A stretch of 32,805 nt of DNA from an uncultured Desulfobacterales bacterium. Its GTDB lineage: Bacteria; Desulfobacterota; Desulfobacteria; Desulfobacterales; JAHEIW01. The position numbers were made by a program, and so were the translations under genes. Below, one piece after another: positions 1 through 18,424 of the stretch; position 1 is the stretch's first letter; every line of letters begins with the position of its first letter. The notes below the pieces were generated by a model. That model had not been told where the DNA came from. It did not search any database and worked only from the letters and a program-made list of their open reading frames with translations. The stretch covers positions 1 to 32,805 of the forward strand of contig CAMYLV010000033.1 of the NCBI GenBank assembly GCA_947259495.1, given 5' to 3'.

Positions 1-36
1 AAGGTAATGAACCTTGACCGCTTCGACCTCGCCTGA
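1..36 (+). CDS. possible 3' end of a gene cut by the window edge
   Basis: Frame 1 reads eleven codons (KVMNLDRFDLA) and then a TGA stop at 34-36. The other two plus-strand frames stop within the first 15 bases. A strong rho-independent terminator follows at 168-207 on the same strand, which fits a gene ending just upstream. The fragment is too short to recognise and may be chance. Confidence 0.2.
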   Translation, partial: KVMNLDRFDLA

Positions 37-167
37 TCGTAGCATAAACGTCTTCGAGGGCTTCTGAAGCGTATTCTGAACTGCAAATCGGATGATCAGG
101 AAGCGATAACCGCCACGAACTGACGGATGTTTTGAACGCTCACGGAGGCTATTAGCAACATATGAGC

Positions 168-207
168 GCGGCGTTTCAATACAATCTGAAACGCCGCCTT
201 TTCTTTA
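168..207 (+). terminator. rho-independent terminator
   Basis: A perfect 11-bp stem pairs 168-178 (GCGGCGTTTCA) with 187-197 (TGAAACGCCGC) around an 8-base loop. It is followed directly by a T-rich tract (CTTTTCTTTA) on the plus strand. It probably ends a transcript that starts left of the window. Confidence 0.75.
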
Positions 208-706
208 GGTCCTTACAGTCTGCCGGTCACAGAATCGGAGCCAAAAATACATAAGTGCCTCAAGGGTGACACCTTCCGCGTTGCTCCAGGCGCACCTTAG
301 GCGAGCGTCCAAGGATTATTATCCTATGCACAACTTCCAAAATTATTGATTGTGTCAACAATAGCGGCAGCAACTTCTAGCTATACTGATGAAATACCAC
401 AATCAAAGTAACTTGCCGAACCCAAAACCACATGTCCCTACTCCAACATCCCCCCATTTATACCGATTTTCATAATAATGTTCCGAGTCATCGACCACCC
501 GCAGAGCGGTTGGCTTGGATTTTTCCGCCATCAACGAAAAAATCAAAGGCACGGTCGTGCCTTAATCGGTGCGGGTGTAACCGGGTGCAAAGCACCCGGT
601 TAAAAACACCCAATTACGGAATTACGGCATAGTTGGTTGTAGGAAAAACGTTGGAATACCGGAACGTTTTTTTGACAACCCCTATAATGGGTGTGGCCCA
701 TCGGGT
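208..706. other. gene-free stretch with a hairpin and a repeat
   Basis: I see no convincing gene here. The one open frame of any length (432-632, plus) has no ribosome site and no protein-like composition. The stretch holds a perfect 10-bp hairpin at 579-601 (AACCGGGTGC, loop AAA, GCACCCGGTT) with no T-run in the following sequence. Next to it is copy A of the 86-bp repeat at 602-687. Confidence 0.5.
602..687 (+). repeat. 86-bp dispersed repeat, copy A
   Basis: The 86 bases match the reverse complement of 11565-11650 with 6 mismatches by eye and no gap (about 93 percent). The copy contains a nested hairpin: GGTTGT and ACAACC as outer arms, AAAAACGTT and AACGTTTTT as inner arms. The matched ends (AAAAACACCC and CTATAA) are sharp, and the flanks of the two copies are unrelated, so this is a discrete element. 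No protein is encoded. Confidence 0.85.
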
Positions 707-1000
707 TTATTTAAAACCACCGTTGCCCGCGTTTTCACTCATACACTGCCAGTAATACGGCCAATTTTTTTTATCGGTGCAATCACCGATAAAACCGCCG
801 AAGCGACCCAATTCGTAATCTTGGGTTATGATATAACCGTGGGGAGATTTAACCGGTTTGGCGGGACCAGAGGCGTTTGACGTGTTTTCGGGCACTGCCT
901 TATTTGCGGTATCTGGTGCGGTTTGAGAATTATCGGGTGGTAAGCTCGCAGCACACGCCAACAAATTGATCATCACAATAAAAGTTACTAACGCTTTCAT
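707..1000 (-). CDS. small predicted lipoprotein, function unknown
   Basis: The 97-residue protein begins MKALVTF and has a short hydrophobic signal with a lipobox (LLAC, Cys16), so it is probably lipidated and exported. A low-complexity linker rich in Pro, Ala, Ser and Asn (about residues 20-52) follows, then a small C-terminal part with two cysteines (GDCTDKK and WQCMSEN) that could form a disulfide. I chose the start at 1000 because GGGAGA lies 5 bases upstream; an in-frame ATG 15 bases earlier has no such site. It is monocistronic. Copy A of the 86-bp repeat lies just beyond its stop and its hairpin may act as terminator. I do not recognise the family. Confidence 0.7.
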   Translation of the reverse strand: MKALVTFIVMINLLACAASLPPDNSQTAPDTANKAVPENTSNASGPAKPVKSPHGYIITQDYELGRFGGFIGDCTDKKNWPYYWQCMSENAGNGGFK

Positions 1001-1226
1001 AAATATCTCCCGCAAAAATTTTAGACACTCTCACCAAAACTAACGCAAGTTCATTTATTGTAAAGCAAAATTTACCGGTAACCACTTGCCGCTTTTTATT
1101 GCGGTATTATTTTCAAACAGTTTAGGATTTTTGGCAGAACTATCCTCAACTCGAATAATCAAGTATTTAGTGTTTGGCAATTCATTGGAATCTAATCTAA
1201 ACACAAAACACGAACCAACCAAACAC

Positions 1227-1266
1227 AGAAAAGGTTTCGGGATCGAAAACCTTTTCTTAAAGGAGG
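1227..1266 (+). promoter_or_regulatory. leader hairpin abutting a strong ribosome site
   Basis: A perfect 11-bp stem (AGAAAAGGTTT at 1227-1237, AAACCTTTTCT at 1247-1257) with a 9-base loop lies one base ahead of AAAGGAGG at 1259-1266, which serves the gene at 1274. A hairpin this close to the ribosome site could influence translation or mRNA stability. No trigger or alternative fold could be identified, so the role is inference. Confidence 0.5.
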
Positions 1267-1273
1267 AAGCGAT

Positions 1274-1468
1274 ATGATTAAAGTCAAAACGTTTGCAAGT
1301 CCTTTAAAAATTTTTCATGCCAGAAAAGAGCTCGAAGAACTTGACGCTCTCGTAAACAAATTCATCGAAGAAAAGAAAGTGCAGAGAATAATTTCCGTCA
1401 GTGATGCTCCCACCACCGATGACACCGGAGCGACGATGGGGTTGATTCGCGTCCTTGCTTATGAATAG
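1274..1468 (+). CDS. small conserved-looking protein, function unknown
   Basis: The gene encodes a 64-residue soluble protein with no signal or membrane segment. Residues about 16-36 are charged and helical (ARKELEELDALVNKFIEEKK). The C-terminal half (VQRIISVSDAPTTDDTGATM) looks like a beta strand and a turn, ending IRVLAYE. The start is secured by AAAGGAGG 7 bases upstream. I do not recognise a family and give no function. It lies opposite the 3' part of a probably broken gene on the other strand. Confidence 0.65.
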   Translation: MIKVKTFASPLKIFHARKELEELDALVNKFIEEKKVQRIISVSDAPTTDDTGATMGLIRVLAYE

Positions 1469-1489
1469 ATGGACTCTATTTGGGCTTGG

Positions 1490-1663
1490 GCGATCTGGGC
1501 CGCCTAAAAGTTTTTTCGAATTTTTCGCGCCTTTTATTGGATACTGTGTTTGAGCATCCACCACCCGGCCGTTGATCACACATTTCGGCATGCCGGTCGC
1601 CAGAAACAGGCCCCAAAAGATAAACATTGAGATCAGCTTGGCTCTGATCGATTTGGCTTTCAT
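1490..1663 (-). pseudogene. truncated lipoprotein-like gene
   Basis: The reading begins MKAKSIRAKLISMFIFWGLF, a typical export signal, and continues CVINGRVVDAQTQYPIKGA, which resembles the start of carboxypeptidase-regulatory-like beta-sandwich domains (G-x-V-V-D-x-x-T-x-x-P-I-x-G-A). A purine-rich GGGGGGG lies a few bases upstream of the ATG at 1663. After about residue 45 the protein-like character ends and the frame runs on through unrelated sequence opposite the small gene at 1274. I read this as the 5' remnant of a deleted gene; the exact break is uncertain. Confidence 0.4.
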
Positions 1664-1712
1664 AATTCCCCCCCAGGCCTTCGGAATTAAATACCGCTGT
1701 AATTCAGTCCTC

Positions 1713-1769
1713 CCGGTGCTGATTGCCGGTCCGGTGCAGCCCCGCCCGCAAACGGGCAGGGCTGACTGA
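1713..1769. repeat. GC-rich stem-loop
   Basis: Short outer arms TTCAGTC and GACTGAA enclose an inner stem AGCCCcGCCCG / CGGGCaGGGCT with loop CAAA and one mismatch. No T-run follows on either strand, so it is not a clear terminator. It looks like another intergenic palindrome of the type common in this window. Confidence 0.45.
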
Positions 1770-1801
1770 ACCTTAATGGTTGCAATCCCCCCAAATGCCG
1801 T

Positions 1802-1828
1802 TGTTACAATTTGTTACAAACTGTTACA
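1802..1828 (+). promoter_or_regulatory. three TGTTACA direct repeats at 10-bp spacing
   Basis: TGTTACA occurs at 1802-1808, 1812-1818 and 1822-1828, so the three copies lie on the same face of the helix. OmpR/PhoB-family regulators usually bind such phased direct repeats. The site is about 100 bp upstream of the Spy/CpxP-like gene, and an OmpR-family regulator is encoded downstream at 2714. It is probably that regulator's operator; the match is to site architecture, not to a proven consensus. Confidence 0.55.
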
Positions 1829-1931
1829 CCGCTGAAAAGCATTCTGGCTTAATCTGAATTATGTTTTTACCATCGATAATTTCTTTTTCTTTCCCAATTC
1901 TTATATGTTGTTTTACAAAAAAGGAGGAATC

Positions 1932-2372
1932 ATGGTAAAAAAAGGTTTAACAATCTCATTAATCTGTGTTTTTATTTCAGCTGCTCTGGTTTTCACCGGA
2001 TGTCGCTCTCATTCCGCGCACGGTAAAGCGGAGTTTATGGTGGATTACATTGCCGAGACGCTCGATCTGAACGACCCCCAACGAGCACAACTTGATGATA
2101 TCAAAGAAGAATTTCTGGCTAAAGCCAAAGAAATGCATGCTAAAAAAGCGGCCATGCATGCGGAGTTGATGGCCGAGCTGCGTAAGGAAGAAATTGATCA
2201 GCAGCGGATGAAAGAACTCATCGCTCAGAAGCAAGAACAGATGGCTGAAATAATGGATCTGGCGGTGGTCCGTCTGGCTGATTTTCACCGCACCCTGACA
2301 CCGGATCAAAAAGAAAAGCTGGTGGCCAAGCTGGAATGGTTTCATGAGAAGCATAAGCATCGGTGGGAATAA
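1932..2372 (+). CDS. Spy/CpxP/ZraP-like periplasmic stress lipoprotein
   Basis: The 146-residue protein has a signal peptide ending in a lipobox (VFTGC, about Cys24), so it is likely anchored in the envelope. The rest is highly helical and charged, with LDLNDPQRAQLDDIK near residue 45 and HRTLTPDQKEKL near residue 125; the second carries the LTxxQ motif of the Spy/CpxP family. Members bind misfolded proteins or metals in the periplasm and often feed back on a partner sensor kinase. I chose the ATG at 1932 because AAGGAGG lies just upstream and the signal peptide begins there. The paired regulator and kinase lie downstream, and phased TGTTACA repeats upstream suggest control by that pair. Confidence 0.75.
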   Translation: MVKKGLTISLICVFISAALVFTGCRSHSAHGKAEFMVDYIAETLDLNDPQRAQLDDIKEEFLAKAKEMHAKKAAMHAELMAELRKEEIDQQRMKELIAQKQEQMAEIMDLAVVRLADFHRTLTPDQKEKLVAKLEWFHEKHKHRWE

Positions 2373-2376
2373 AAGC

Positions 2377-2653
2377 CATCTCAAAAATGCATCTAACCCG
2401 CCTGCGGCGGACAGGCGCCCAAGGGCTGTGTTATCCAGGATAAATGGATTACACATCTATTTTTATGAAGATTAAGGTGTGCATCAAACCGATTCAAAAT
2501 GCTCGAATACTATCGTGTATGCTCCTCTTTTGAATCGGTTTTCGCCTTTTGAGCACCTTTACATTAATTAAGATCTGATGCGAAATCCCGCCTATAGCGG
2601 GGGCCCTTGGGCGCCTGTCCGCCGCAGGCGGGTTACCTACTATTTTTGAGACG
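2377..2653. repeat. 277-bp palindromic MITE-like element
   Basis: Two perfect 31-bp inverted arms (2395-2425 and 2604-2634, GC-rich, containing GCGGCGGACAGGCG in the left arm) are framed by outer arms CATCTCAAAAAT (2377-2388) and ATTTTTGAGACG (2642-2653, 11 of 12 paired). Inside is a further inverted pair, AAACCGATTCAAAA and TTTTGAATCGGTTT, around 2487-2542. No protein is encoded. The whole space between the Spy-like gene and the response regulator (2373-2713) is essentially this element, consistent with a non-autonomous mobile element or intergenic palindrome family. Confidence 0.75.
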
Positions 2654-2713
2654 ACTTTAAATAACTATTAGTAGGTCTAGAATTAAAGTCTAAACTCTAA
2701 AATCCAAAATTGT

Positions 2714-3394
2714 ATGGCTTCGACGATCCTGATTATTGATGATGACACCAAACTGAATCAGCTGCTCAAAGATTTTTTAAAAGATTTTGGTTATGCGGTC
2801 ATCACGGCAACCCGACCGACCCAAGGGCTAAAAAAGCTGAAGCGGGATTCGCCGGATCTGGTAATTCTGGACATCATGCTGCCGGAGATGGACGGTTTCG
2901 AAGTCTGTAGAGCGATTCGCCAGACCAGCACCATTCCGATTATCATGCTTACGGCCAGGGGAGAAATTACGGATAAGGTGGTTGGGCTGGAGCTCGGGGC
3001 CGATGATTATTTGGCAAAGCCCTTTGAACCCCGTGAACTGGTGGCCCGGATTCAATCTGTTTTACGCCGCGCACATCAACTCAGCGACAATCAGACTCTG
3101 ACATTTGAGCGGCTGACCATCGATCTGGATAAACGCATTGCCCTGCTGGATGGTAATCCCGTTGACCTGACAACCAATGAGTTTACTGCTCTGACATTGC
3201 TGGCCAGGAATGCCGGGAAAGTGTTGAATCGCGACCAGATTCTGCAGGAACTGCGAGGTATGGACTGTGATGCCTTCAATCGCTCGGTTGACATCGCTGT
3301 CAGTCGCCTGCGTCAAAAGCTTAACGACAATCCCAAGTCTCCTGAGTTTATTAAGACGGTTTGGGGAAGTGGATACGTATTTATTGCCAATTGA
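2714..3394 (+). CDS. OmpR/PhoB-family response regulator (CpxR/RstA-like)
   Basis: The 226-residue regulator has a receiver domain (about 1-118) with the acidic pair in IDDD (residues 9-11), the phospho-acceptor Asp in VILDIMLP (Asp53) and the conserved Lys in LAKPFEP (about 102). A winged-helix DNA-binding domain (about 128-224) shows LTTNEFTALTLLARNAG and the GSGYVF end. It should be phosphorylated by the kinase encoded 61 bp downstream and act on promoters with direct repeats, possibly the TGTTACA array upstream of the Spy-like gene. No good ribosome site precedes the ATG. The 277-bp palindromic element separates it from the Spy-like gene. Confidence 0.9.
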   Translation: MASTILIIDDDTKLNQLLKDFLKDFGYAVITATRPTQGLKKLKRDSPDLVILDIMLPEMDGFEVCRAIRQTSTIPIIMLTARGEITDKVVGLELGADDYLAKPFEPRELVARIQSVLRRAHQLSDNQTLTFERLTIDLDKRIALLDGNPVDLTTNEFTALTLLARNAGKVLNRDQILQELRGMDCDAFNRSVDIAVSRLRQKLNDNPKSPEFIKTVWGSGYVFIAN

Positions 3395-3455
3395 ATAATG
3401 AAAAGTGAATATTAACGGAATTCTGCCAATTTAAAATCAGGTTTTTCAATCACAC

Positions 3456-4766
3456 ATGCCAACGCAACGGTTTAAAAAAATCTTCCGCTCGGTTTTCACC
3501 AAGCTTCTGGTGGTGATTATCCTCGCCGGTATTTGTATCAACCTGGTGGTGGGTGGATTTTTCATACACCTTCGCAACCAGTTCATCGGCCCATTTCATC
3601 AAAACGTAGTCCAATACCTCAATTATCTGATTGCCGATGTAGGCAACCCCCCAAACCTGGACCGCGCCCGAGAAATTGCCCGTGAGTCTTTTTTGGACGT
3701 TCGTTACGAAAGTCCGAATCTTCGCTGGACGACATCAGATGAGCTGCCAACAGAAATCAGGGGCCGCTTTCGCAGCTTGCGCCAAAATCCCGACGTTCGT
3801 TATGGGAGACACAGGGGACGGCATATCATCGAAGTCACGGCAGAGGAGGGCCGTTTTATCTTTGGCCCGTCTCGCAATTTACCAGTTGATAGCGCCCGCC
3901 ACCGGCTGTTTGTGATCATGCTGCTCCTGTTAACCCTGATTTTGGCAGGGGCCTTTTTTGTGATTCGTCATATTTTAAGACCTGTTAAATGGCTCAACGA
4001 CGGTGTAAAGGAAGTCGGTCGTGGGAATTTAAAACACCGGGTGCCGTTGAAAAAGTCGGATGAACTGCGGGATCTGGCAGCTGCATTTAATGACATGACC
4101 GATCGCATCCGGGACATGCTGCACACCAAAGAGCAGTTACTTTATGATGTTAGCCATGAGCTGCGGACCCCGCTTACGCGCATGAAAGTGGCGCTTGAAT
4201 TTTTGGCAGACAGCCAGGCCAAACAAAGCCTTCAAAGTGACATTGAAGAAATGGAGAAAATGGTCAGCGAGATTCTGGAAACAGCGCGCCGCCAGCATAA
4301 ATATGAAAATTTAAAAAAACAGCCCACCAACCTGGTTGATCTTATCAAACAGACAACGGCCGCCTTTGAAAACCAGCCGCCGGGCATTGAAATTGTTGAT
4401 CTTCCTTCTGAAATTGAGGTCGATATAGACCCCGAGCAGATCAAGACCGTATTTGAAAATGTGCTTAACAATGCGATTAAATATTCACAACCCGATAGTG
4501 CACCCATTCAAATATCTGCTAAATACGAGGAATCCTATGTCGTCGTGCAGATTAGGGATTTTGGAATGGGTATTCCTGCAGAGGAACGAGCGCATATTTT
4601 CGAGCCGTTTTATCGGGTGGACAAGTCCCGCGCCAAAGATACCGGGGGCTACGGATTGGGCTTGAGTTTGTGTAAGACGATTATGGAAGCCCATGACGGT
4701 AAAATAGAAGTGCAAAGCCGGCCGCAAGAGGGAACCACCGTGTCTCTATTCTTTCCTTTAATCTAA
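3456..4766 (+). CDS. membrane sensor histidine kinase (CpxA-like)
   Basis: The 436-residue kinase has a membrane helix at about 13-35, a periplasmic sensor of about 110 residues, a second helix at about 150-170, HAMP (about 171-225), a HisKA domain with the phospho-accepting His234 in DVSHELRTPL, and an ATPase domain with the N box NVLNNAIKYS and the G boxes DFGMGIP and GGYGLGLSL. It should autophosphorylate and signal to the adjacent regulator. The size of the periplasmic domain and the Spy-like partner suggest envelope-stress sensing. Its stop overlaps the left end of a 90-bp palindromic element. Confidence 0.9.
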   Translation: MPTQRFKKIFRSVFTKLLVVIILAGICINLVVGGFFIHLRNQFIGPFHQNVVQYLNYLIADVGNPPNLDRAREIARESFLDVRYESPNLRWTTSDELPTEIRGRFRSLRQNPDVRYGRHRGRHIIEVTAEEGRFIFGPSRNLPVDSARHRLFVIMLLLLTLILAGAFFVIRHILRPVKWLNDGVKEVGRGNLKHRVPLKKSDELRDLAAAFNDMTDRIRDMLHTKEQLLYDVSHELRTPLTRMKVALEFLADSQAKQSLQSDIEEMEKMVSEILETARRQHKYENLKKQPTNLVDLIKQTTAAFENQPPGIEIVDLPSEIEVDIDPEQIKTVFENVLNNAIKYSQPDSAPIQISAKYEESYVVVQIRDFGMGIPAEERAHIFEPFYRVDKSRAKDTGGYGLGLSLCKTIMEAHDGKIEVQSRPQEGTTVSLFFPLI

Positions 4767-4855
4767 AGTGAGCGTTTCAAATTAAAAATATGGGGTCATT
4801 TTTAACTTTAAGGAATTCTAATCTTTTTAATATTTTTTATTTGAAACGCTCACTT
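4766..4855. repeat. 90-bp element with 26-bp terminal inverted repeats
   Basis: The arms 4766-4791 and 4830-4855 pair with one mismatch; the outermost 17 bases (AAGTGAGCGTTTCAAAT) are perfect. The AT-rich core is 38 bp. The transcript would fold into one long hairpin with a T-rich 3' arm but no terminal T-run. It overlaps the end of the kinase gene and probably works as a transcript end or is a MITE remnant. Confidence 0.7.
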
Positions 4856-4892
4856 CAGGTAGGAGCTTACGATCTGTTGATCGATCTGGGAA

Positions 4893-5507
4893 ATGACAAT
4901 GACGAAACATCCTGCAACCAAACCGACAGGTGCCGGCAAAAGCAGCTTTGGGCTGATTGACACGGTAGCCTTTTTTCAAGAGCTCGGTTTAAAAAAAGGC
5001 ATCACTTTTTTGGATGTGGCCTGCGGTCGGGGTGCCTATTCACTTGCAATAGCCGATATCATCGGCCAGGACGGTCAGGTGTATGCGGTTGATCTATGGG
5101 AAGAGGGAATTGGTGTCTTAAGAGAAGAAGCCGCTTCAAAAGGGATCCAGAATATGACGACCTATGTCAGTGATGTGGCACAGCACATACCGGCCGAAGA
5201 TGACAGTGTGGATGTTTGCTTGATGGCAACGGTGCTGCATGATCTTGTGGCAGATAAAGTTGAGCGGCAAGTGATGAAGGAAATTGTAAGGGTCATTAAA
5301 CCCCATGGGGTTCTGGCCATTGTTGAGTTTTTTAAAAAGGAGGGACCGCCGGGGCCTCCGAAACCGGTGAGGCTATCACCGGAAGAAGTTGACCAAATGG
5401 TATCGGCCTATGGCTTCCAACAAAAACGGTATACGGAAATCGGGCCCGACAATTATTTGCAAATTTTCACCGCTGCCAGAATCCCCTTTTCTTTCTCGAG
5501 CACATGA
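4893..5507 (+). CDS. class I SAM-dependent methyltransferase, substrate unknown
   Basis: The 204-residue protein has a Rossmann fold. Motif I is FLDVACGRGAYSLA (about 48-61), followed by an acidic residue at the second strand (VYAVDLW) and by VSDVAQHIPAEDDSVDVCL at strand 4. The later VEFFKKEGPPGPPKPVRLSP segment is typical of small ubiquinone/arsenite-type methyltransferases, but nothing shows the substrate. There is no arsenic, quinone or tRNA gene beside it. The start is the ATG at 4893; another in-frame ATG lies at 4899. Its 3' end overlaps the convergent cyclodeaminase gene by 55 bp, and its last dozen residues may be an unneeded extension. Confidence 0.75.
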   Translation: MTMTKHPATKPTGAGKSSFGLIDTVAFFQELGLKKGITFLDVACGRGAYSLAIADIIGQDGQVYAVDLWEEGIGVLREEAASKGIQNMTTYVSDVAQHIPAEDDSVDVCLMATVLHDLVADKVERQVMKEIVRVIKPHGVLAIVEFFKKEGPPGPPKPVRLSPEEVDQMVSAYGFQQKRYTEIGPDNYLQIFTAARIPFSFSST

Positions 5508-6076
5508 CGCTCAAGTTTCTTGATTTCCCGGGTTAGTTCAGCCACAAATACCGTATCTTTAATGGCGCTTAAATTTATCTTTACATTGTATGCTGCTGCA
5601 AGGGCTGCCGTTCGTGCAGCCAGAACGCCAACTAAACCATCGGTAACGGCATTTTGATTTCCGGCCGTAATTGCCCGAAAAGCCAGGTCCATTATTTTTA
5701 ATGCATCCCGGGCAACGCTCAGCGGAACCGTTGCCGCGGTTTTGAATGCTTGCTGAATGGTTCTGGAGCGCTGTTTTTTTTCTTCGCCTGTTTTTTTCGG
5801 CAGCTTAAAGGCCGCCAGCACTTCCTGGTACGCCTGCGCATCATTGTCGATATCGTTCTGCAGCTTCTTTCTCAGATCCGCGGCGGTTTGCGCAATTTTT
5901 TGCATTTCATCCTCAACGGCCTGAAATTCTTTGCGGCCGATGGTTAAATTGGCCACCATTTCTGTCAGGCTGGCTGCTAGGGCGGCATTGAGAGCAGCCG
6001 TGCAGCCGCCCCCGGGCAAGGGTTCCGCCGAAGCCGTCTGTTCTAAAAATTCGATTATAGTCAAATTTTTTAGCAA
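5453..6076 (-). CDS. fchA: formimidoyl-tetrahydrofolate cyclodeaminase
   Basis: This enzyme converts 5-formimino-THF to 5,10-methenyl-THF and ammonia, the last step that saves the histidine one-carbon unit. The 207-residue, all-helical protein matches the cyclodeaminase family: EPLPGGGCTAALNAALAASL near the N terminus, then DIDNDAQAY at about 76-84 and a C-terminal helical bundle. The start is TTG at 6076 with GGAGG nine bases upstream; it overlaps the hutI stop by 7 bp, so translation is probably coupled. It is the last gene of the minus-strand hut operon, immediately after hutI, and FtcD from the same operon supplies its substrate. Confidence 0.9.
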   Translation of the reverse strand: MLKNLTIIEFLEQTASAEPLPGGGCTAALNAALAASLTEMVANLTIGRKEFQAVEDEMQKIAQTAADLRKKLQNDIDNDAQAYQEVLAAFKLPKKTGEEKKQRSRTIQQAFKTAATVPLSVARDALKIMDLAFRAITAGNQNAVTDGLVGVLAARTAALAAAYNVKINLSAIKDTVFVAELTREIKKLERHVLEKEKGILAAVKICK

Positions 6077-7359
6077 TGGATGATACCTCCATTTTCTTTA
6101 TCATAAACCAGGTTGCCCTGTTTGATCACTTTTTCAACGGTGCTGATGCCCAGATGGTAAGGAATATAGGTGTAGGACGGAAATTCCAAAACAACCAGGT
6201 CGCCCGTTTTGCCGGCATCGATACTGCCGATTTGATCCGCCCGGTCGAGGGCGGCCGCGCCGTTTATGGTCAGGGCACTGATGGCTTCTTCGGTGGAAAT
6301 GTTCATATAAAGTGTTGCCAGCGCAAATACCAGCGGAATGGATTCCGTAAAACAGCTTCCCGGGTTAAAATCGGTGGCCAGCGCCACGGCACAATTTGAA
6401 TCCATCATTTTGCGACCGTTGGCATACGGTTCTTTCAGGCTAAAAGCGGTGGCCGGCAAAAGGGTTGCCACGACACCGGCCGCTGCCATGTCTTTAATGC
6501 CCTGGTCGGAGGCCTGCAGCAAATGATCCGCCGAGACTGCCCCGAGCTCCGCTGCCAGTTCCGCCCCACCCAGTTGCACGATTTCATCCGCATGCATTTT
6601 TAACTTCAGTCCCAGGTCCTTTGCACTGGAAAGCAGACGGCGGGATTGTTCAATCGAAAAGACGTTTTTTTCACAGAATATATCGCAGAATTCCGCCAGT
6701 TGTTGATCGGTTACCCGGGGCAGGACGTCTTTGGCCATGAAATCGATGAAGGCATCTTGCTTGCCTTTATATTCTTCCGGAACTGCATGGGCGCCCAAAA
6801 AGGTCGGCACCACATCCAGGTAGTGAATTTGATCCAGGCGGGCCATCACTTCAAGCTGTTTGATTTCGGTCTCCTGGTCCAGGCCGTACCCGCTTTTGCC
6901 CTCCACGGTGGTTACGCCAAACGACAGCATGGAGTTCAGTCGCTGGATGCCGGATTGCAGCAATTCTTCGGCCGAGGCCTGCCGGGTGGCCTCTACTGTG
7001 TTAACAATGCCGCCGCCACGCTGCATGATTTGCATATAACTGTCGCCGCGCAAACGCCATGCAAACTCTTCGGCCCGGTAGCCGCCGAATACCAGATGGG
7101 TGTGCGAATCGACAAAACCCGGCAGCACGGCTTTGCCGCGGGCATCGATCATATCAAAATCGGATTGATCCGCGCCGGCCTTTTTAAACCGCTTCTCAAT
7201 ATCCTCGCTTTGGCCGGTGGCCTCAATGACCCCATTTTTTATCAACACAGCCCCATCATAGATGATTTTCAGATCGACCATCTCCCGGCCCTGTTTGGCC
7301 GCAAACCCGCTGCAGGTCACCAGCTCAGCAGCATTTTTTATTATCAGGTTTCCATTCAT
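6070..7359 (-). CDS. hutI: imidazolonepropionase
   Basis: HutI opens the imidazolone ring of 4-imidazolone-5-propionate to N-formimino-glutamate. The 429-residue protein is an amidohydrolase TIM barrel with the metal ligands His86 and His88 (DSHTHLVFGG), His256 (MHADE), a later His in VSADHL and the catalytic Asp330 (ATDFNPGS). The substrate-binding segment KSGYGLD is at about 155-161. Length is normal for the family. AAAGGA lies before the ATG. A 137-bp palindrome separates it from ftcD upstream, and its stop overlaps fchA. Confidence 0.95.
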   Translation of the reverse strand: MNGNLIIKNAAELVTCSGFAAKQGREMVDLKIIYDGAVLIKNGVIEATGQSEDIEKRFKKAGADQSDFDMIDARGKAVLPGFVDSHTHLVFGGYRAEEFAWRLRGDSYMQIMQRGGGIVNTVEATRQASAEELLQSGIQRLNSMLSFGVTTVEGKSGYGLDQETEIKQLEVMARLDQIHYLDVVPTFLGAHAVPEEYKGKQDAFIDFMAKDVLPRVTDQQLAEFCDIFCEKNVFSIEQSRRLLSSAKDLGLKLKMHADEIVQLGGAELAAELGAVSADHLLQASDQGIKDMAAAGVVATLLPATAFSLKEPYANGRKMMDSNCAVALATDFNPGSCFTESIPLVFALATLYMNISTEEAISALTINGAAALDRADQIGSIDAGKTGDLVVLEFPSYTYIPYHLGISTVEKVIKQGNLVYDKENGGIIHC

Positions 7360-7396
7360 CTTTTTCCTTTAACAACACGGTTTTTGGGATATTTAA

Positions 7397-7533
7397 AGCG
7401 TTTGAAAAATGCTCAGTTTTGTTCAAGTCAAGGAAGTCAAAGATTTTTACCGGAGGCATACTTGTAGTATGTCGAGGATTAAAATCTTTTTCTGACACAG
7501 AAATTGGGCAAAAGGGGGCGTTTTTCAAATGCT
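7397..7533. repeat. 137-bp imperfect palindrome inside the hut operon
   Basis: The ends AGCGTTTGAAAAA (7397) and TTTTTCAAATGCT (ending 7533) pair with one mismatch. Further in are AAAGATTTT and AAAATCTTT, and at the centre CATAC-TTGTA-GTATG. The element fills almost the whole spacer between ftcD and hutI and ends exactly at the ftcD stop codon. It codes for nothing visible and would form a long hairpin in the operon mRNA. Confidence 0.7.
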
Positions 7534-8439
7534 TTACTCCCAGATGCGCGATTCCAGTACCTGCTCCATTGAAAAATCCTCCAGCCCCAGATAATACGCT
7601 GCCGCATCAATAAGCGCTTCCATGGGGACCAGCCCGACGATTTCACTGCCGATCACATTGACTCCATAGCGGCGGGCTTCGACTTTGATCAGTTCAAAGG
7701 CCCGGTATAGAGCGGTTTTGCTGTAGTCGGTCAGGTTCATCGATACCTGCACCAATCCCCGGTCTTTTAATTCAATGCCGATGCCCTTACAGTATCTAAG
7801 CCCGCCGCTGATATGCCGGACCTTTTTAGCAATTTCGTTGGCAATCTCGAGGTTGCCGCTGTCCAGGTTGACATTATAGGCCACCAGCGGCGTTCGAGCA
7901 CCGATGGCGGTCACGCCGGCTGCGGGATGAATCTTGGCGGGGCCAAAATCGGGTTTCCATTTTGCCTGTTTGATTTTTTCTATCATACCCTCATATTGGC
8001 CTTTGCGAATGTTGGTCAAATTCTGCCTTTCAGGGCGGCTGGCCGATTTTTCATACAGATAAACGGGAAGAGAATATTTCTGGGCTGCCTTTTTTGCGAC
8101 TTCTTTGGAAAAGGCGATAGCTTCTTCCATATGGACGTTTTTAATCGGAATAAATGGAACGACGTCGATAGCCCCCATCCTCGGATGCTGGCCCTGGTGG
8201 GTTCTCATATCGATGACCTCGATGGCACAGCCCATTGCCGCGATGACGGCTGTTTTGAGGGCATCCGGTTCTCCGACCACCGTAATGACCATCCGATTGT
8301 GATCTCTGTCTGTTTGATAGTCGAGAAGCTTAACACCTTTTTTGCCCCGAAAGGGTGCCACTATTTTTTCGATGTTTTTCGAATTTCGTCCCTCACTGAA
8401 ATTGGGCACACATTCGATTATTTTTTTCATCCCAGCCAT
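7534..8439 (-). CDS. ftcD: glutamate formimidoyltransferase
   Basis: FtcD moves the formimino group from N-formimino-glutamate to tetrahydrofolate, giving glutamate and 5-formimino-THF. The 301-residue protein is the stand-alone bacterial form, with the cyclodeaminase as a separate gene (fchA), unlike the fused mammalian enzyme. Visible family marks are the start ECVPNFSEGR, the active-site stretch MRTHQGQHPRMGAIDVVPF at about 78-96, and SEIVGLVPMEAL near the C terminus. The ATG at 8439 has AGGAG five bases upstream. With this gene the operon follows the folate-dependent branch of histidine breakdown rather than HutF/HutG or HutG alone. Confidence 0.93.
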   Translation of the reverse strand: MAGMKKIIECVPNFSEGRNSKNIEKIVAPFRGKKGVKLLDYQTDRDHNRMVITVVGEPDALKTAVIAAMGCAIEVIDMRTHQGQHPRMGAIDVVPFIPIKNVHMEEAIAFSKEVAKKAAQKYSLPVYLYEKSASRPERQNLTNIRKGQYEGMIEKIKQAKWKPDFGPAKIHPAAGVTAIGARTPLVAYNVNLDSGNLEIANEIAKKVRHISGGLRYCKGIGIELKDRGLVQVSMNLTDYSKTALYRAFELIKVEARRYGVNVIGSEIVGLVPMEALIDAAAYYLGLEDFSMEQVLESRIWE

Positions 8440-8468
8440 GTCTTTCTCCTGGATTTAATTTTTCTCAT

Positions 8469-8552
8469 CGCAGAGTTCGCTGAGTTTATTTTTCTTTTTG
8501 CTTTCCATTGAGAGGACGGAAAGCAAAAAACTATCTCTCTGCGAACTCTGCG
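8469..8552. repeat. nested cruciform between hutU and ftcD
   Basis: Outer perfect 12-bp arms CGCAGAGTTCGC (8469-8480) and GCGAACTCTGCG (8541-8552) enclose inner perfect 12-bp arms TTTTTGCTTTCC (8495-8506) and GGAAAGCAAAAA (8518-8529). On the operon strand no T-run follows, so it is not a classical terminator. It could set the relative amount of HutU and the downstream enzymes by processing or stabilising the mRNA, or be a mobile palindrome. Confidence 0.75.
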
Positions 8553-8565
8553 TCTCTGCGACGAA

Positions 8566-10611
8566 TTATTTTTTCAAGTCAGCAAATGCTTTCGTAACCA
8601 GGTCCGCCACCATTTTATCATCGGCGATATAGGGTATGGTGATGTGATCTGACCCCGCACGCATTTTGTTATACTGGATGCTGGTGTCAATTGAATTTGC
8701 ATTGCGGGCCCATGCCCGGCGGGCCACACCCCCCATTACATCCCATGGGATCGCGCGCCGGATGACGGCATCGACGCGCTCGCTGCCGTCTAAAACGAGC
8801 CCGAATCCACCGTTGATGGCATTGCCGATGCCCACTCCGCCGCCGTTGTGCAGGGCCACCAGACTCATGCCCCGGGCGGCATTGCCGGCATAGCAGTGAA
8901 TCGCCATGTCAGCGGTAATATTACTACCGTCTTTGATGTTGGCGGTTTCCCTGAACGGCGAATCCGTGCCGCCGGTATCATGGTGATCGCGGCCCAGCAT
9001 GACCGGACCGATTTCAGCATTGCGTACCATTTCGTTGAATTTCAAAGCGATGTTCATGCGCCCCATGGCGTCCTGATATAAAATTCGCGCTTGCGTTCCC
9101 ACCACCAGCCGGTTCTTTGCGGCATCGCGAATCCAAACATAGTTATCCCTGTCCTGGAAGCGTCTTTGCGGATCGATGCATTTCAGGGCCGCCCGGTCGG
9201 TTTTTACCAGATCTTCTTCTTCTCCGCTCAAGCACACCCATCTGAATGGGCCATAGCCGTAATCGAAAAGAATCGGTCCCATGATGTCTTCGACATAGGA
9301 CTGGAAGACAAATCCATCAAGGGGATCTTTGCCGTTTTTGCAGATCTCGCTGACGCCGGCATCAAAGACGGCCTTGAGAAAACTGTTGCCGTAATCGAAA
9401 AAATAGGTGCCCCGATCCGCCAGGGCTTTGATGAGCTCAAAATGGCGCCGCAGCGTGGCGTCAACCATTTCCTTGAAACCGGCATGGCCGGAGCGCAGCA
9501 GCTCGTTGCGTTCCTCAAAGGAAATCCCCTGCGGGCAGTAACCGCCATCATATACCGCGTGGCAGGAGGTTTGATCCGATAACAGATCAATCTTTACGGT
9601 GTGGTTGACAGCATATTCCAGCAGGTCGACCACATTGCCGTAAAAGGCGATCGCCGTACTCTTCTTTTGCTGTTGATATTGTGCGGCGACCTTGAAAGCT
9701 TCAGCCGGATCCTCGGTTACCCGGCTGACCCATCCCTGTTCAAGCCGGGTTTCGATCCGGGAATAATCGACTTCGGCAATTATACCCACGCCGTTGGCAA
9801 TTTCGATGGCCTTGCCCTGGGCACCGCTCATGCCGCCAAGGCCGGAGGTAACAAATAAGCGTCCACTTAAATCCTGATCGGCCGGAATGCCGAGTTTGTC
9901 CCGACCGGCGTTGAGAATGGTGCTGTAAGTGCCGTGCACGATCCCCTGGGGGCCGATATACATCCACCCACCGGCGGTCATCTGACCGTAGTTGGAGACC
10001 CCCAGGGCCGCGGCACGGTTCCAGTTTTGCAGATCGTCAAAGCAGCCCACCATTATGCCGTTGGTGATGATGACGCGCGGTGCCGCCGGTGATGATGTGA
10101 ACAATCCCAGCGGGTGGCCGGATGCCATAACCAGCGTTTGCTTCCGGTTTAGCGTTTCAAGGTATCTTTTGATTAAATGGTACTGCATCCAGTTCTGACA
10201 GACCTGGCCGGTTTCGCCGTAGGTTACTAATTCATAGGGGTAAAGCGCGACATCAAAGTCCAAATTGTTGTCGATCATGACCTGAAATGCGCGGCCCTCG
10301 ATACAGGGGCTGCGGTATGCATCGATCGGCCGGCCTTTGATATGGCCTGCGGGTCGAAATCGATATCCGTAAATTCTTCCCCGGGTCAGCAGTTCCGTTA
10401 AGAATTCGGGTGCCAGCTGTTGATGCCATTTTTGCGGAACATAGCGCAGGGCATTCCTTAAAGCGAGTTCGGTATCCTTTTGATTAAGTGTGAAATGGCG
10501 GGCCGGGGCCCTGCGGATGCCGGCGACAAATGGCGGCATTTCCGGCAGGTCATCAAACATGTCTTCCAGTTTAATCGTCATTGCTTTTGAAATCCTTGCA
10601 TTAACTTCCAT
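8566..10611 (-). CDS. hutU: urocanate hydratase, long (eukaryote-like) form
   Basis: HutU adds water to urocanate, using tightly bound NAD, to give imidazolone-propionate. The protein has 681 residues, whereas classical bacterial urocanases have about 555, and it resembles the long form of animals: DQTSCHAVYDGGYCP, GPFRWVCLSG, RDHHDTGGTDSPFRET and NGGFGLVLDGSE. The nucleotide-binding GLGGMSGAQGKA lies near residues 257-268. The position that reads ARICW in short urocanases, with its catalytic Cys, reads ARILY here. GPFRWVC offers a cysteine elsewhere. A purine-rich AAGGGAAAA overlapping the upstream isomerase stop serves the ATG at 10611, so the two genes are probably translated together. Confidence 0.93.
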   Translation of the reverse strand: MEVNARISKAMTIKLEDMFDDLPEMPPFVAGIRRAPARHFTLNQKDTELALRNALRYVPQKWHQQLAPEFLTELLTRGRIYGYRFRPAGHIKGRPIDAYRSPCIEGRAFQVMIDNNLDFDVALYPYELVTYGETGQVCQNWMQYHLIKRYLETLNRKQTLVMASGHPLGLFTSSPAAPRVIITNGIMVGCFDDLQNWNRAAALGVSNYGQMTAGGWMYIGPQGIVHGTYSTILNAGRDKLGIPADQDLSGRLFVTSGLGGMSGAQGKAIEIANGVGIIAEVDYSRIETRLEQGWVSRVTEDPAEAFKVAAQYQQQKKSTAIAFYGNVVDLLEYAVNHTVKIDLLSDQTSCHAVYDGGYCPQGISFEERNELLRSGHAGFKEMVDATLRRHFELIKALADRGTYFFDYGNSFLKAVFDAGVSEICKNGKDPLDGFVFQSYVEDIMGPILFDYGYGPFRWVCLSGEEEDLVKTDRAALKCIDPQRRFQDRDNYVWIRDAAKNRLVVGTQARILYQDAMGRMNIALKFNEMVRNAEIGPVMLGRDHHDTGGTDSPFRETANIKDGSNITADMAIHCYAGNAARGMSLVALHNGGGVGIGNAINGGFGLVLDGSERVDAVIRRAIPWDVMGGVARRAWARNANSIDTSIQYNKMRAGSDHITIPYIADDKMVADLVTKAFADLKK

Positions 10612-10623
10612 GACAATTTTCCC

Positions 10624-11520
10624 TTAACGCGGGCTGTCTTGTGTTATTCCTAAAACCTCCCGACAATATTTAATGCTCCGCACGATAGTCTCTTTTTCCA
10701 TCCTCAGGGCCGTTTCCCTATCATCAAGAGGTATTTCCATCTCAGTTTCAATATTAATTCGTTTCATGGATGATCGGGTTTTGATGATCTCATAGGCGCG
10801 CTTTATGTCAATGTCCCCGTCACCGACGGCGGTTCCCGTTAGCTTAAATCCGTGGCGCTGAAATTCGATACGGTCGTCCCGGAAATGATTCGTAAAAGCA
10901 CGCGGAGCCAGATTTTCAATGGCCTCCATCGGATCTTCCATGACCATCAAGGCATTGACGGTATCGATGCAGGCACCGACCAGCGGGTTGTCGACCTGGT
11001 CCAACAGCCAGAGGATCTCCTCTGAAAAAGTGTCGCAGTGATTTTCCACAGCAATTTTGACGCCGGCGTCTTCGGCGGCCGGGACCAGCTGTTTTAGCCG
11101 GGAGGCAACGGATTTTATTTGCGCCATTACTTCAGGATGGAAACGGCTGGCCGCTACCGGGCGCGGCCGGATTAAGTCCATACTGAGCTTGACGATATCC
11201 GCCCCTAAAAATTTTGCAGTGGCAATCGCTTCTGCCGGGTCATGCTGAATTCCGATTCCCTGTCCGCCAAGGTCCATGGAAAAGTTGTATTCGAGATACA
11301 GATCCCGTTCGCGCGCTGCCATGCCGACTTCTTCAAGATAAGCCGGTTCCAGACTTTCCAGAACCCCGTCATCTAAATGCAGGCCGTCTATTCCCCAGCG
11401 AACCGCCTGGTCCAGAAGTTCCAAGGTGCTCAACTGCCTGGGCCAGGGCAGGTTAAAGTCGGCCCAGGCCTGTCCGATGCCGTGAAGATAAAGACTATAT
11501 GTGTGCAGTCCCAGCAACAT
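10624..11520 (-). CDS. TIM-barrel sugar-phosphate isomerase/epimerase-like protein
   Basis: The 298-residue protein belongs to the xylose-isomerase-like/AP-endonuclease-2 family of divalent-metal TIM barrels. Likely metal ligands are Glu in KIAVENHCD, Asp in GACIDTVNAL, His in FTNHFRDD and Glu in INIETEME. Its substrate cannot be read from the sequence. It is the first gene of the hut operon, 12 bp before hutU, though no isomerase is needed for histidine breakdown; this suggests a second substrate or a side branch. A paralogue with the same opening (MLLGLHTYSL) begins at 32480. I see no clear ribosome site before the ATG. Confidence 0.8.
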   Translation of the reverse strand: MLLGLHTYSLYLHGIGQAWADFNLPWPRQLSTLELLDQAVRWGIDGLHLDDGVLESLEPAYLEEVGMAARERDLYLEYNFSMDLGGQGIGIQHDPAEAIATAKFLGADIVKLSMDLIRPRPVAASRFHPEVMAQIKSVASRLKQLVPAAEDAGVKIAVENHCDTFSEEILWLLDQVDNPLVGACIDTVNALMVMEDPMEAIENLAPRAFTNHFRDDRIEFQRHGFKLTGTAVGDGDIDIKRAYEIIKTRSSMKRINIETEMEIPLDDRETALRMEKETIVRSIKYCREVLGITQDSPR

Positions 11521-11564
11521 TTTGCGTTGAAATGTCTAATCCTGGATACCTTAATTGATTGGCT

Positions 11565-11650
11565 TTATAGTGGTTGTCAAAAAAACGTTCCGGTATTGAA
11601 ACGTTTTTTCTACAACCACCTATGCCGCAATTCCGTAATTGGGTGTTTTT
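11565..11650 (-). repeat. 86-bp dispersed repeat, copy B (inverted)
   Basis: This is the reverse complement of the copy at 602-687, with 6 differences over 86 bases. It lies in the divergent spacer between the isomerase-hutU operon and hutH. The nested hairpin (GGTTGT/ACAACC outside, AACGTTTTTT-type arms inside) is kept in both copies, which suggests the structure matters. Confidence 0.85.
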
Positions 11651-11736
11651 AGTGGAAAGCTGTATATATGCTTGTGATGTTCGGAATTCGTTGCGGGGAA
11701 AGATAACTTGTATTGAAAGTCCTTGCAAGGTAATAT

Positions 11737-11766
11737 TTGACAACTCTTCGTTCACCGTTCTATTCT
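11737..11766 (+). promoter_or_regulatory. candidate sigma-70 promoter of hutH
   Basis: A perfect -35 box TTGACA (11737-11742) is followed after 18 bases by TATTCT (11761-11766), which matches four of six -10 positions. Transcription would start near 11773, about 40 bp before the hutH ATG at 11815. The 20-bp motif at 11776 then falls at the transcript start, where a repressor could act. Confidence 0.45.
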
Positions 11767-11775
11767 AATTTCGTT

Positions 11776-11795
11776 TTGTTTACGACCAATTGGGG
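11776..11795 (+). promoter_or_regulatory. shared leader motif, copy 1 (hutH)
   Basis: TTGTTTACGACCAATTGGGG matches 18 of 20 bases of 18425-18444, which lies upstream of the second mttB-like gene. The two places are otherwise unlike. The position just after the likely -10 box of hutH suits an operator. It has little internal symmetry (CCAATTGG is a short palindrome here only). Confidence 0.45.
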
Positions 11796-11814
11796 CAATA
11801 GTGAGGCCAATGTT

Positions 11815-13344
11815 ATGAAGACCATATTTCTGGGTGTGGAGGGTATGGCTCTGGAGCACCTGATTGCCATTGCCAGAAACAGCGCACAGGTTCAATTGAC
11901 CGCTGACGCAGAGAAGCAGATACAAAAAAGTCGACACCTGATTGAGCGCTGGGTGCAGGAAGAGCGAAGAATATATGGCATCACCACCGGATTTGGCGCC
12001 CTCAGTGATGTTTCCATATCCAGAGCCGATACCCGTCGCCTTCAAAAAAACATACTGATGAGCCATGCCGCCGGTGTCGGCAGACCTTTTGATGAGGAAA
12101 CCGTCAGAGCCATCCTGGCGCTGCGCATAAAGGATTTGGCCAGGGGCCATTCCGGTATTCATCTATCAACTGTACAACAGCTGGTGGCGCTTTTGAACTG
12201 GGGGGTGAGTCCGTTCATTCCTGAAAAAGGCTCGGTGGGGGCCAGCGGCGATTTGGCCCCGTTGGCCCATCTTGCCCTGGTTCTGATCGGGAGGGGGGAA
12301 GCCTTTTACAAGGGGCAGCGGCTAACCGGTCGACAGGCACTCAACAAATGCGGTCTTAAGCCGTTGCAGCTGGAAGCCGGTGAAGGCCTGGCGCTGGTCA
12401 ACGGCACTCAGGTGATGACCGCCATCGGTGGACTGGCGGTCTATGATGCCGGCCGGCTTGCCAAGTTGACCGACATCGCCGCGGCTATGAGCCTGGAAGT
12501 ACTGATGGGCAGCCGCATGGAATTTGATCCCAAAATCCATGAGGTTAGACCCCATCCCGGCCAGGCAGCCGCAGCCGATAACATGGCACGCATCACCCAA
12601 AATAGCGAAATCATCACTTCCCATAAAGATTGCGTCCGCGTTCAGGACGCTTACACATTAAGGTGTTCACCACAGGTCCATGGGGCCACGCGGGATGCCA
12701 TCCGCTATTGCCGCGATGTGATTGAAACCGAGATGAATTCTTCCACTAATAATCCACTGATATTTGCAGATTCAGAAGCGTTTTTACTGGGCGGCAACTT
12801 CCACGGTCAACCGGTTGCGCTGGCGATGGATTTTCTCGGAATAGCGGTTGCCGAGCTTGCGGATATCTCGGAACGACGAATCGAACGCCTGGTCAATCCC
12901 ATGCTCAGCGGCCTGCCGGCTTTTCTGGTGGATGACGGCGGGCTTAATTCCGGGTTTATGCTCGTCCAATACACCGCTGCGGCCCTTGTTTCTGAAAACA
13001 AGGTACTCTGTCATCCGGCCAGTATCGATTCAATTCCCACCTCGGCGAATAAGGAAGATCACGTTTCGATGGGAACCATTTCGGCGCGAAAATGCAGAGA
13101 AATTGTCAGCAATACCGAAGATGTCATTGCGATTGAACTTTTGAGTGCCGCCCAGGCGCTCGATTTGTTTACCAATCTGAAACCCGGCGAGGGCACCCTG
13201 GCCGCCTACCAGGTAATTCGGAAGACGGTTCCCCACCTTGAAAAGGACCGCATTCTCTCCTCAGATATCGCCGCTGTCAAGGCGTTGATGCGCAGCGGTA
13301 AGATCGTCAACGCGGTAGAAAAACAGGTCGGTGCACTTCAGTAA
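11815..13344 (+). CDS. hutH: histidine ammonia-lyase
   Basis: HutH removes ammonia from L-histidine to give trans-urocanate, the entry step of the pathway. With the start at 11815 the protein has 509 residues, the family's usual length, and residue numbers line up with the Pseudomonas putida enzyme: Tyr54 (YGITTGFG), His84 (MSHAAG), the MIO-forming Ala143-Ser144-Gly145 in GSVGASGDLAP, Asn196, Gln277, Arg283, Phe329 and Glu414 (ANKEDHVSM). His83 and Glu414 in P. putida numbering are associated with histidine use, which argues against a Phe/Tyr lyase. An earlier in-frame TTG at 11737 is part of the promoter instead. GAGG lies about 10 bases upstream. It is divergent from the rest of the hut genes and leads an AOR and an mttB-like gene. 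Confidence 0.95.
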   Translation: MKTIFLGVEGMALEHLIAIARNSAQVQLTADAEKQIQKSRHLIERWVQEERRIYGITTGFGALSDVSISRADTRRLQKNILMSHAAGVGRPFDEETVRAILALRIKDLARGHSGIHLSTVQQLVALLNWGVSPFIPEKGSVGASGDLAPLAHLALVLIGRGEAFYKGQRLTGRQALNKCGLKPLQLEAGEGLALVNGTQVMTAIGGLAVYDAGRLAKLTDIAAAMSLEVLMGSRMEFDPKIHEVRPHPGQAAAADNMARITQNSEIITSHKDCVRVQDAYTLRCSPQVHGATRDAIRYCRDVIETEMNSSTNNPLIFADSEAFLLGGNFHGQPVALAMDFLGIAVAELADISERRIERLVNPMLSGLPAFLVDDGGLNSGFMLVQYTAAALVSENKVLCHPASIDSIPTSANKEDHVSMGTISARKCREIVSNTEDVIAIELLSAAQALDLFTNLKPGEGTLAAYQVIRKTVPHLEKDRILSSDIAAVKALMRSGKIVNAVEKQVGALQ

Positions 13345-13525
13345 TTGAAACCCTCATTTGGTAAAAATGTGTTGAGTAAACATACCTTTATGCCGAACTT
13401 ATATTTAGCGATGGTAGGAGTTTTCTTTCTTGACACAGATTTCGCAATTCTCTAAGTTAAATTGTTTTAGCAGACTCAGACCCAATGTGGGTTAATTTGA
13501 AATCGAAAGGTGCTTTCTCGTTTTT

Positions 13526-15409: not shown

Positions 15410-15426
15410 TTTCCATCTGCGAGGCA

Positions 15427-18344: not shown

Positions 18345-18424
18345 GATGCCTCCTGATGTAAGTTTTATCAAAACCTCCTGAAGTTATACCTTTATTTTAA
18401 AACCTCTCCCCCCCTTTTTTCATA

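Follow-up and report, generated by a model that had tools for sequence, protein, structure and literature searches.

The two inverted repeats that bracket some 11 kb of the window (the whole 32,805-nt stretch of DNA analysed, which is contig C33 of the 4.44-Mb, 69-contig genome G000 of an uncultured relative of marine sulfate reducers) very probably belong to a family of non-autonomous transposons (MITE) that is moved in trans by a transposase of the IS630/Tc1-mariner type. The MITE-like reading suggested in the preliminary description is strongly supported by the dispersed copies, by two empty sites with TA duplicated, one clean and one probable, and by ends that match those of IS630 elements. 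Copies A and B are independent insertions and form no designed pair.

A repeat search returned, as the longest inverted pair among those found in the window, two arms at 601-687 and 11565-11651, each of 87 nt, 93% complementary with six mismatches and separated by 10,877 nt. BLAST between repeat A and repeat B gave E = 1.5e-31, a likeness far past chance. The inverted copies with six mismatches of the preliminary description were borne out, as was the location of copy B in the isomerase/hutH intergenic region. Its 86-bp unit stood as regards the inversion and the equal arms, but when the flanks of further copies were read, 602-687 and 11565-11650 turned out to be only the right-hand part common to two longer elements. 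Copy A extends leftwards as far as 458 (TTATACC) and copy B as far as 11667. Nearly the whole length of copy A was matched at at least 17 other places of the genome, where other copies have the same ends. Copy B retains the AAAACACCC tail of a second dispersed repeat, E2, and probably arose by internal deletion from the long form represented by copy A. The coordinates are collected in Table 1, where the TA to the left of copy A would be a target duplication by analogy with the empty sites of other copies, and where the hutH start was set at ATG 11815 by the ORFs of relatives. The start of the isomerase gene is 47 bp from copy B.

Table 1. Features of the two MITE copies and of the genes next to copy B (window coordinates).
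Feature	Position	Strand	Basis
MITE copy A, long form, 224 bp excluding the target TA	461..684	+	ends TACCG...CCCCTA
TA, left end of copy A (putative target duplication)	459..460		sequence; TA rule from other copies
TA, right end of copy A	685..686		sequence
E2, second dispersed repeat, four hairpins, nested in the left hairpin of copy A	485..613	+	same segment elsewhere without MITE
Right-hand hairpin of copy A: right terminal repeat and its inverted copy	632..680	+	fold; pair counts, 86 copies
MITE copy B, 97 bp	11568..11664	-	alignment row L002; nhmmer match 11565-11666
TA, left end of copy B	11665..11666		sequence
TA, right end of copy B	11566..11567		sequence
Xylose-isomerase-like TIM-barrel gene	10624..11520	-	PF01261, E 6.1e-18
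hutH (histidine/aromatic lyase), other side of copy B	11815..13344	+	PF00221, E 6e-204 for ORF 11737-13344

At least 41 places in the genome matched the repeat at E <= 1e-17 (40 of 288 first-look candidates scored). Contig C13 (345,603 b), taken whole as a sample not picked for copies, contained 22 copies of at least 45 bits plus two left halves at about 35 bits, from which about 280 dispersed copies per genome were extrapolated, the count that the preliminary description had proposed to make. All 22 copies in C13 were intergenic at a coding fraction of 0.815, as were 57 of the 59 copies in all sampled regions, both the counts and the fraction resting on a simple codon-usage gene caller made for the analysis. 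The common form measures ~105 bp including the flanking TTA/TAA and consists of two adjacent hairpins, TTATACCGC..GCGGTATAA and GTGGTTGT..AACGTTTTTTTGACAACCAC; subfamilies have the ends in common and differ in their interiors. Like the 97- and 224-bp copies of the window, the elements are short, multicopy and without room for a transposase gene, and they carry terminal inverted repeats that are imperfect, the left and right consensus ends agreeing at 19 of 27 bases. Mean pairwise identity among 38 aligned copies from this genome was 84%, so most of them are not recent. At L015, L021 and G000:C4:110238-110331, extra right ends alone, in tandem units of ~30 bp, adjoin MITE copies.

Eleven copies in two 20-kb regions of the same genome were checked for empty sites against homologous regions drawn from the same-genus genomes G001, G002 and G003. 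For the copy at L142:15506-15610, a clean empty site was found in G002, where the copy is lacking and the flanks meet in the exact join ATATATTTA|AAT after one TA; this copy is also missing from G001. The long form at L142:3358-3590 is missing from G001 and G002, one TA remaining, and G003 has its own long form at that place. Only the first 14 bases of the right flank were comparable here, and they agreed at 12 positions in G002 (a level reached at none of 19,485 other places) and at 9 in G001 (reached at 57 of 18,486), making this a probable empty site of the long form. The duplication of a target site, which the preliminary description had named as a check, was thus found as a duplicated TA at one clean and one probable site. 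A third copy (L149:2843) is missing from both G001 and G002, with an inexact join right before the AGGAGG of a gene, and the remaining copies among the eleven had inexact joins or diverged flanks. When the homologous stretches were scanned with a profile, one long form was found in G003 and no copy in G001 or G002 except for one weak right-end match in the latter (12.8 bits). The subfamily copy L142:10875 was up to 99% identical to G002 copies located elsewhere, while the homologous stretches are 76-86% identical and the homologous place in G002 has no copy, pointing to recent activity or transfer.

The mobilising enzyme was sought through the ends of the element. An intact IS630-family element with ends like those of the MITE was identified in G186: it is ~1.2 kb long, has an open frame of 343 aa (NCBIfam NF033545; PF13358) and is bounded by TTTA and TAAA, with TA on both sides. 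The right end of the MITE is matched at 25 of 27 bases by the right end of this element and at 20 of 27 by its left end. In the same-genus G003, elements of this kind are internally deleted and bounded by both ends, and in their left end the terminal repeat pairs with an inverted copy of itself to form a hairpin, the same design as in the MITE; from this likeness of design we infer that the MITE may derive from such a hairpin-forming IS end. With the G021 protein as query, 27 of the 194 genomes of the order gave a match. Ends were compared with five patterns, two from the MITE and three from IS elements. At four or fewer mismatches, 10 of the 12 close transposase loci (60-100% identity, with L204 and L228 taken together as a single locus) had an end that fitted one of these patterns, and 7 of these 10 had ends on both sides when up to six mismatches were allowed per side; the two failing loci were L233 (7 mismatches) and L249. 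As a control, none of 20 distant loci (<40% identity) had an end within 7 mismatches. The three IS end patterns were first seen in L204, L206 and L207, which are not independent in this test; against the MITE ends alone, 3 to 6 bases differ in these loci.

The window's own genome yielded no parent. A search of seven genomes (G000, G001, G002, G003, G007, G021 and G030) for DDE_3 transposases gave no match in G000, G001, G002 and G007, of which G000, G002 and G007 are copy-rich. An old family does not require the parent to be present in the same genome, and the G000 assembly, 97% complete in 69 contigs, could miss one. DDE_3 matches were obtained in G003 and G021, whose loci bear the ends of the repeat, and in copy-rich G030, where neither of the two loci has matching ends. 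DDE_Tnp_1 (PF01609) was also considered as the parent and rejected, since its 19 loci in 5 genomes had no end at 8 or fewer mismatches of 27.

At the level of the order, the MITE was present in 16 of 194 genomes, across ten families. A scan of an 84,980-species collection with a single exact pattern returned 37 stretches, all from MAGs labelled Desulfobacterales, Desulfobacteraceae or Deltaproteobacteria. Only 3 of the 16 MITE-bearing genomes (G003, G021 and G079) also contain an IS with matching ends, and G005, G103 and G186 have such an IS and no MITE match. The association of MITE and IS (Fisher p 0.013) was not relied on, as it came from a provisional table with 4 IS-only genomes against 3 with matching ends. 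No DNA match to the repeat was found in the plasmid collection, which held only IS630 relatives of <60% identity; in the viral contigs, a scan with one exact pattern was negative and the G186 transposase had no relative.

The long form of the MITE is a composite, because the segment at 485-613 also occurs without MITE. It was found without MITE ends at 10 aligned loci, and a search for E2 in G000, G002 and G003 gave 30 loci, with 21 solo copies, 7 inside a MITE and 2 beside one MITE end; the two sets overlap by four loci. Solo E2 copies have common ends (GAGTCA...CCCAATC) in unrelated flanks, and a solo copy forms four hairpins with a predicted folding energy of -69.5 kcal/mol. A search with full-length copy A found at least 18 places, A itself included, that match over almost the entire element (40 of 325 candidates scored). 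These 18 places with the same ends, together with the probable empty site at L142:3358, suggest that the composite moved as one unit. Copy B and L016, which retain the E2 tail, have the appearance of long forms shortened by deletion. Contig C13 contains one solo E2 and no long form. A tRNA gene was present in the retrieved stretch at 5 of the 10 aligned E2 loci, and in the larger set one lay within 200 bp at 3 of 21 solo E2 loci vs. 0 of 30 MITE loci; a MITE copy outside those 30, L144:6947-7052, adjoins a tRNA-Leu gene. The vicinity of E2 to tRNA genes is only a weak hint. Some solo copies, among L261, L262, L263, L265 and L144, lie 16-146 bp from tRNA genes.

In the proposed mechanism, the transposase would recognise the terminal repeats, TATACCGC...GTTCCG on the left and TATAGTGGTTGTCAAAAAAACGTTCCG on the right; the element would be excised and then inserted at a TA, which would become duplicated, a cut-and-paste reaction of an IS630-type enzyme modelled on ISY100. 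The parent element would have been lost from the window's genome. E2 would have come to lie in the left hairpin, giving the long form, the composite would then have spread, and copy B would be a later internal deletion. Whether the MITE acted as a carrier in the full sense, taking up the independent, strongly structured E2, multiplying the composite as a TA-inserting unit and, as orphan copies, crossing families of the order without its parent, we regard as evenly balanced.

The preliminary description had also envisaged that recombination between the inverted copies could flip the enclosed 11 kb. Such a device is suggested by the inverted orientation and the 93% identity over 87 bp, but with about 280 similar copies in the genome nothing marks out this pair, and the relative orientation of the genes across copy B is the same in G001 and G002, so that inversion is not supported and appears very improbable. 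In both relatives, the counterparts of about 8540-11520 and of 11810-13349 share a contig and are oriented relative to each other as in the window, and 706-5467 (G001) and 708-5086 (G002) are collinear with it. The comparison of orientation in relatives proposed earlier could be run across copy B, whereas window 1-457 has no homologue in the relatives' stretches examined, so this comparison covers copy B and not site A. In G001 the 706-5467 block and the block across copy B are on different contigs, which continue past the match by 1.4 and 2.3 kb; this indicates a rearrangement near 5467-5478, at a distance from both copies. One of the G002 contigs stops at 5086. The interval between isomerase and hutH holds an extra ORF in both, of 387 aa in G001 (L139 582-1745) and 374 aa in G002 (L140 786-1910), the latter, the only one of the two scanned, having 4Fe-4S domains. 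The window lacks this ORF, and copy B sits there.

The hairpin mentioned in the preliminary description proved real, with folding z-scores on the repeat's own strand of -6.5 for copy B and -1.7 for copy A, and with pairing over 86 copies of 96-98% in the right hairpin and 87% in the left. The covariation score of 0.046 over these copies was reached by 0 of 500 shuffles; a +3 slide gives a close 0.041, a single stem pair accounts for 14 of the 20 both-side changes, and RNAalifold assigns a consensus energy of nearly nil (-0.4 kcal/mol). What is claimed is therefore a kept palindrome, not a proven RNA. These data bear on the idea that copies have been co-opted, the hairpin or the outward TTGACA of the right end serving as a putative terminator, promoter part or mRNA leader for genes such as hutH or the isomerase. 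Copies lie in intergenic gaps, some of them 13-15 bp from the nearest predicted gene, the isomerase start is close to copy B, and the kept hairpin has one pair with both-side changes in 14 of 86 copies and a score unmatched by the shuffles. Yet these changes in a single pair may stem from few subfamily events, the slid alignment scores almost as well, the consensus energy is almost none, and any tolerated insertion is expected to be intergenic; judged from sequence features, such a role is unlikely. That the repeats represent a vertically inherited structured RNA or cis-regulator is extremely improbable: copy B folds stably, but Rfam had no match at either repeat, the homologous stretches examined in G001 and G002 showed no copy apart from the weak right-end match in G002, and presence in the order is patchy. 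An RNA family was rejected on the absence observed at homologous places in relatives and the lack of an Rfam match. Spread by a RAYT (Y1) transposase, as for REP-type palindromes, is also very improbable. The elements are palindromic and intergenic, and 28 Y1_Tnp matches exist in 6 genomes, 3 of them in G000, but REP elements have neither terminal repeats nor duplication, whereas these possess terminal inverted repeats and TA duplication. Nor are copies enriched at the 28 Y1 loci (85 kb), which include one near-complete copy and one left end with E2 against about five expected by chance at the G000 density.

As an IS630-derived MITE, the element is of a kind already known; no published report of its family was found among the titles and abstract beginnings listed from the open-licence literature. 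The TATAGTGG start of the MITE presumably resembles Correia ends, and Candidatus Thiomargarita nelsonii, which has a comparable element, belongs to a different phylum. The closest in kind is the RUP (repeat unit of pneumococcus), which is about 100 bp long, has at least a hundred intergenic copies, IS630-like terminal inverted repeats and a TA target, and was proposed to be mobilised by IS630-Spn1 (PMC2229807). The present family differs in that no parent was found in most copy-rich genomes, that its terminal repeats are longer but imperfect, and that it has a long form with another repeat, the two being likened by description. Correia/NEMIS elements are similar in that they come in two sizes, of which the larger has additional sequence inside, and in their TA at the termini and their hairpin (PMC2229807); for the present family, in contrast, a matching IS630 element could be identified, and the sequence inside is a dispersed repeat in its own right. 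The TATA-ended MITE of Ca. Thiomargarita nelsonii, again likened by description, has many copies in an uncultured marine bacterium and TATAG ends, an IS630 origin was considered and it is combined with a group I intron, while no strong parent candidate was reported there (PMC4853749). ISY100, of the Tc1/mariner/IS630 family, shares the TA target duplication and a transposase acting at terminal inverted repeats, and supplies the cut-and-paste mechanism; it is autonomous, whereas the window element has no transposase gene (PMC2170065).

The window contains further repeats. At 2383-2646 there is another dispersed repeat with 44-nt inverted arms, whose core (2416-2548) has many copies in both G001 and G002 and occurs at 5 places in C13. 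A third family at 7394-7536 (core 7401-7529) has several copies in G001 and G002 and none in C13 at E <= 1e-5. A 93% inverted repeat at 4763-4858 has one relative in C13, and sequence similar to it flanks the MITE copy at C13:277587. Two MTTB-family methyltransferase genes stand back to back at 15385-16878 (+) and 16887-18371 (-); an Rfam PYLIS_3 match at 17279-17378 (-) is barely over threshold, and both MTTB frames are open in the bacterial code.

A conspicuous repeat is thus accounted for as a transposon family, and the likeliest type of its mobilising enzyme is named. The case also calls for caution, as by chance any two MITE copies may seem to bracket a block of genes. In the composite, one bacterial repeat clearly lies inside another and apparently travels with it, and if the MITE did act as the carrier, one parasitic repeat hitch-hikes on another. 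With many copies and no resident parent in an uncultured member of the Desulfobacterales, the persistence of orphan MITEs becomes approachable by genome comparison.
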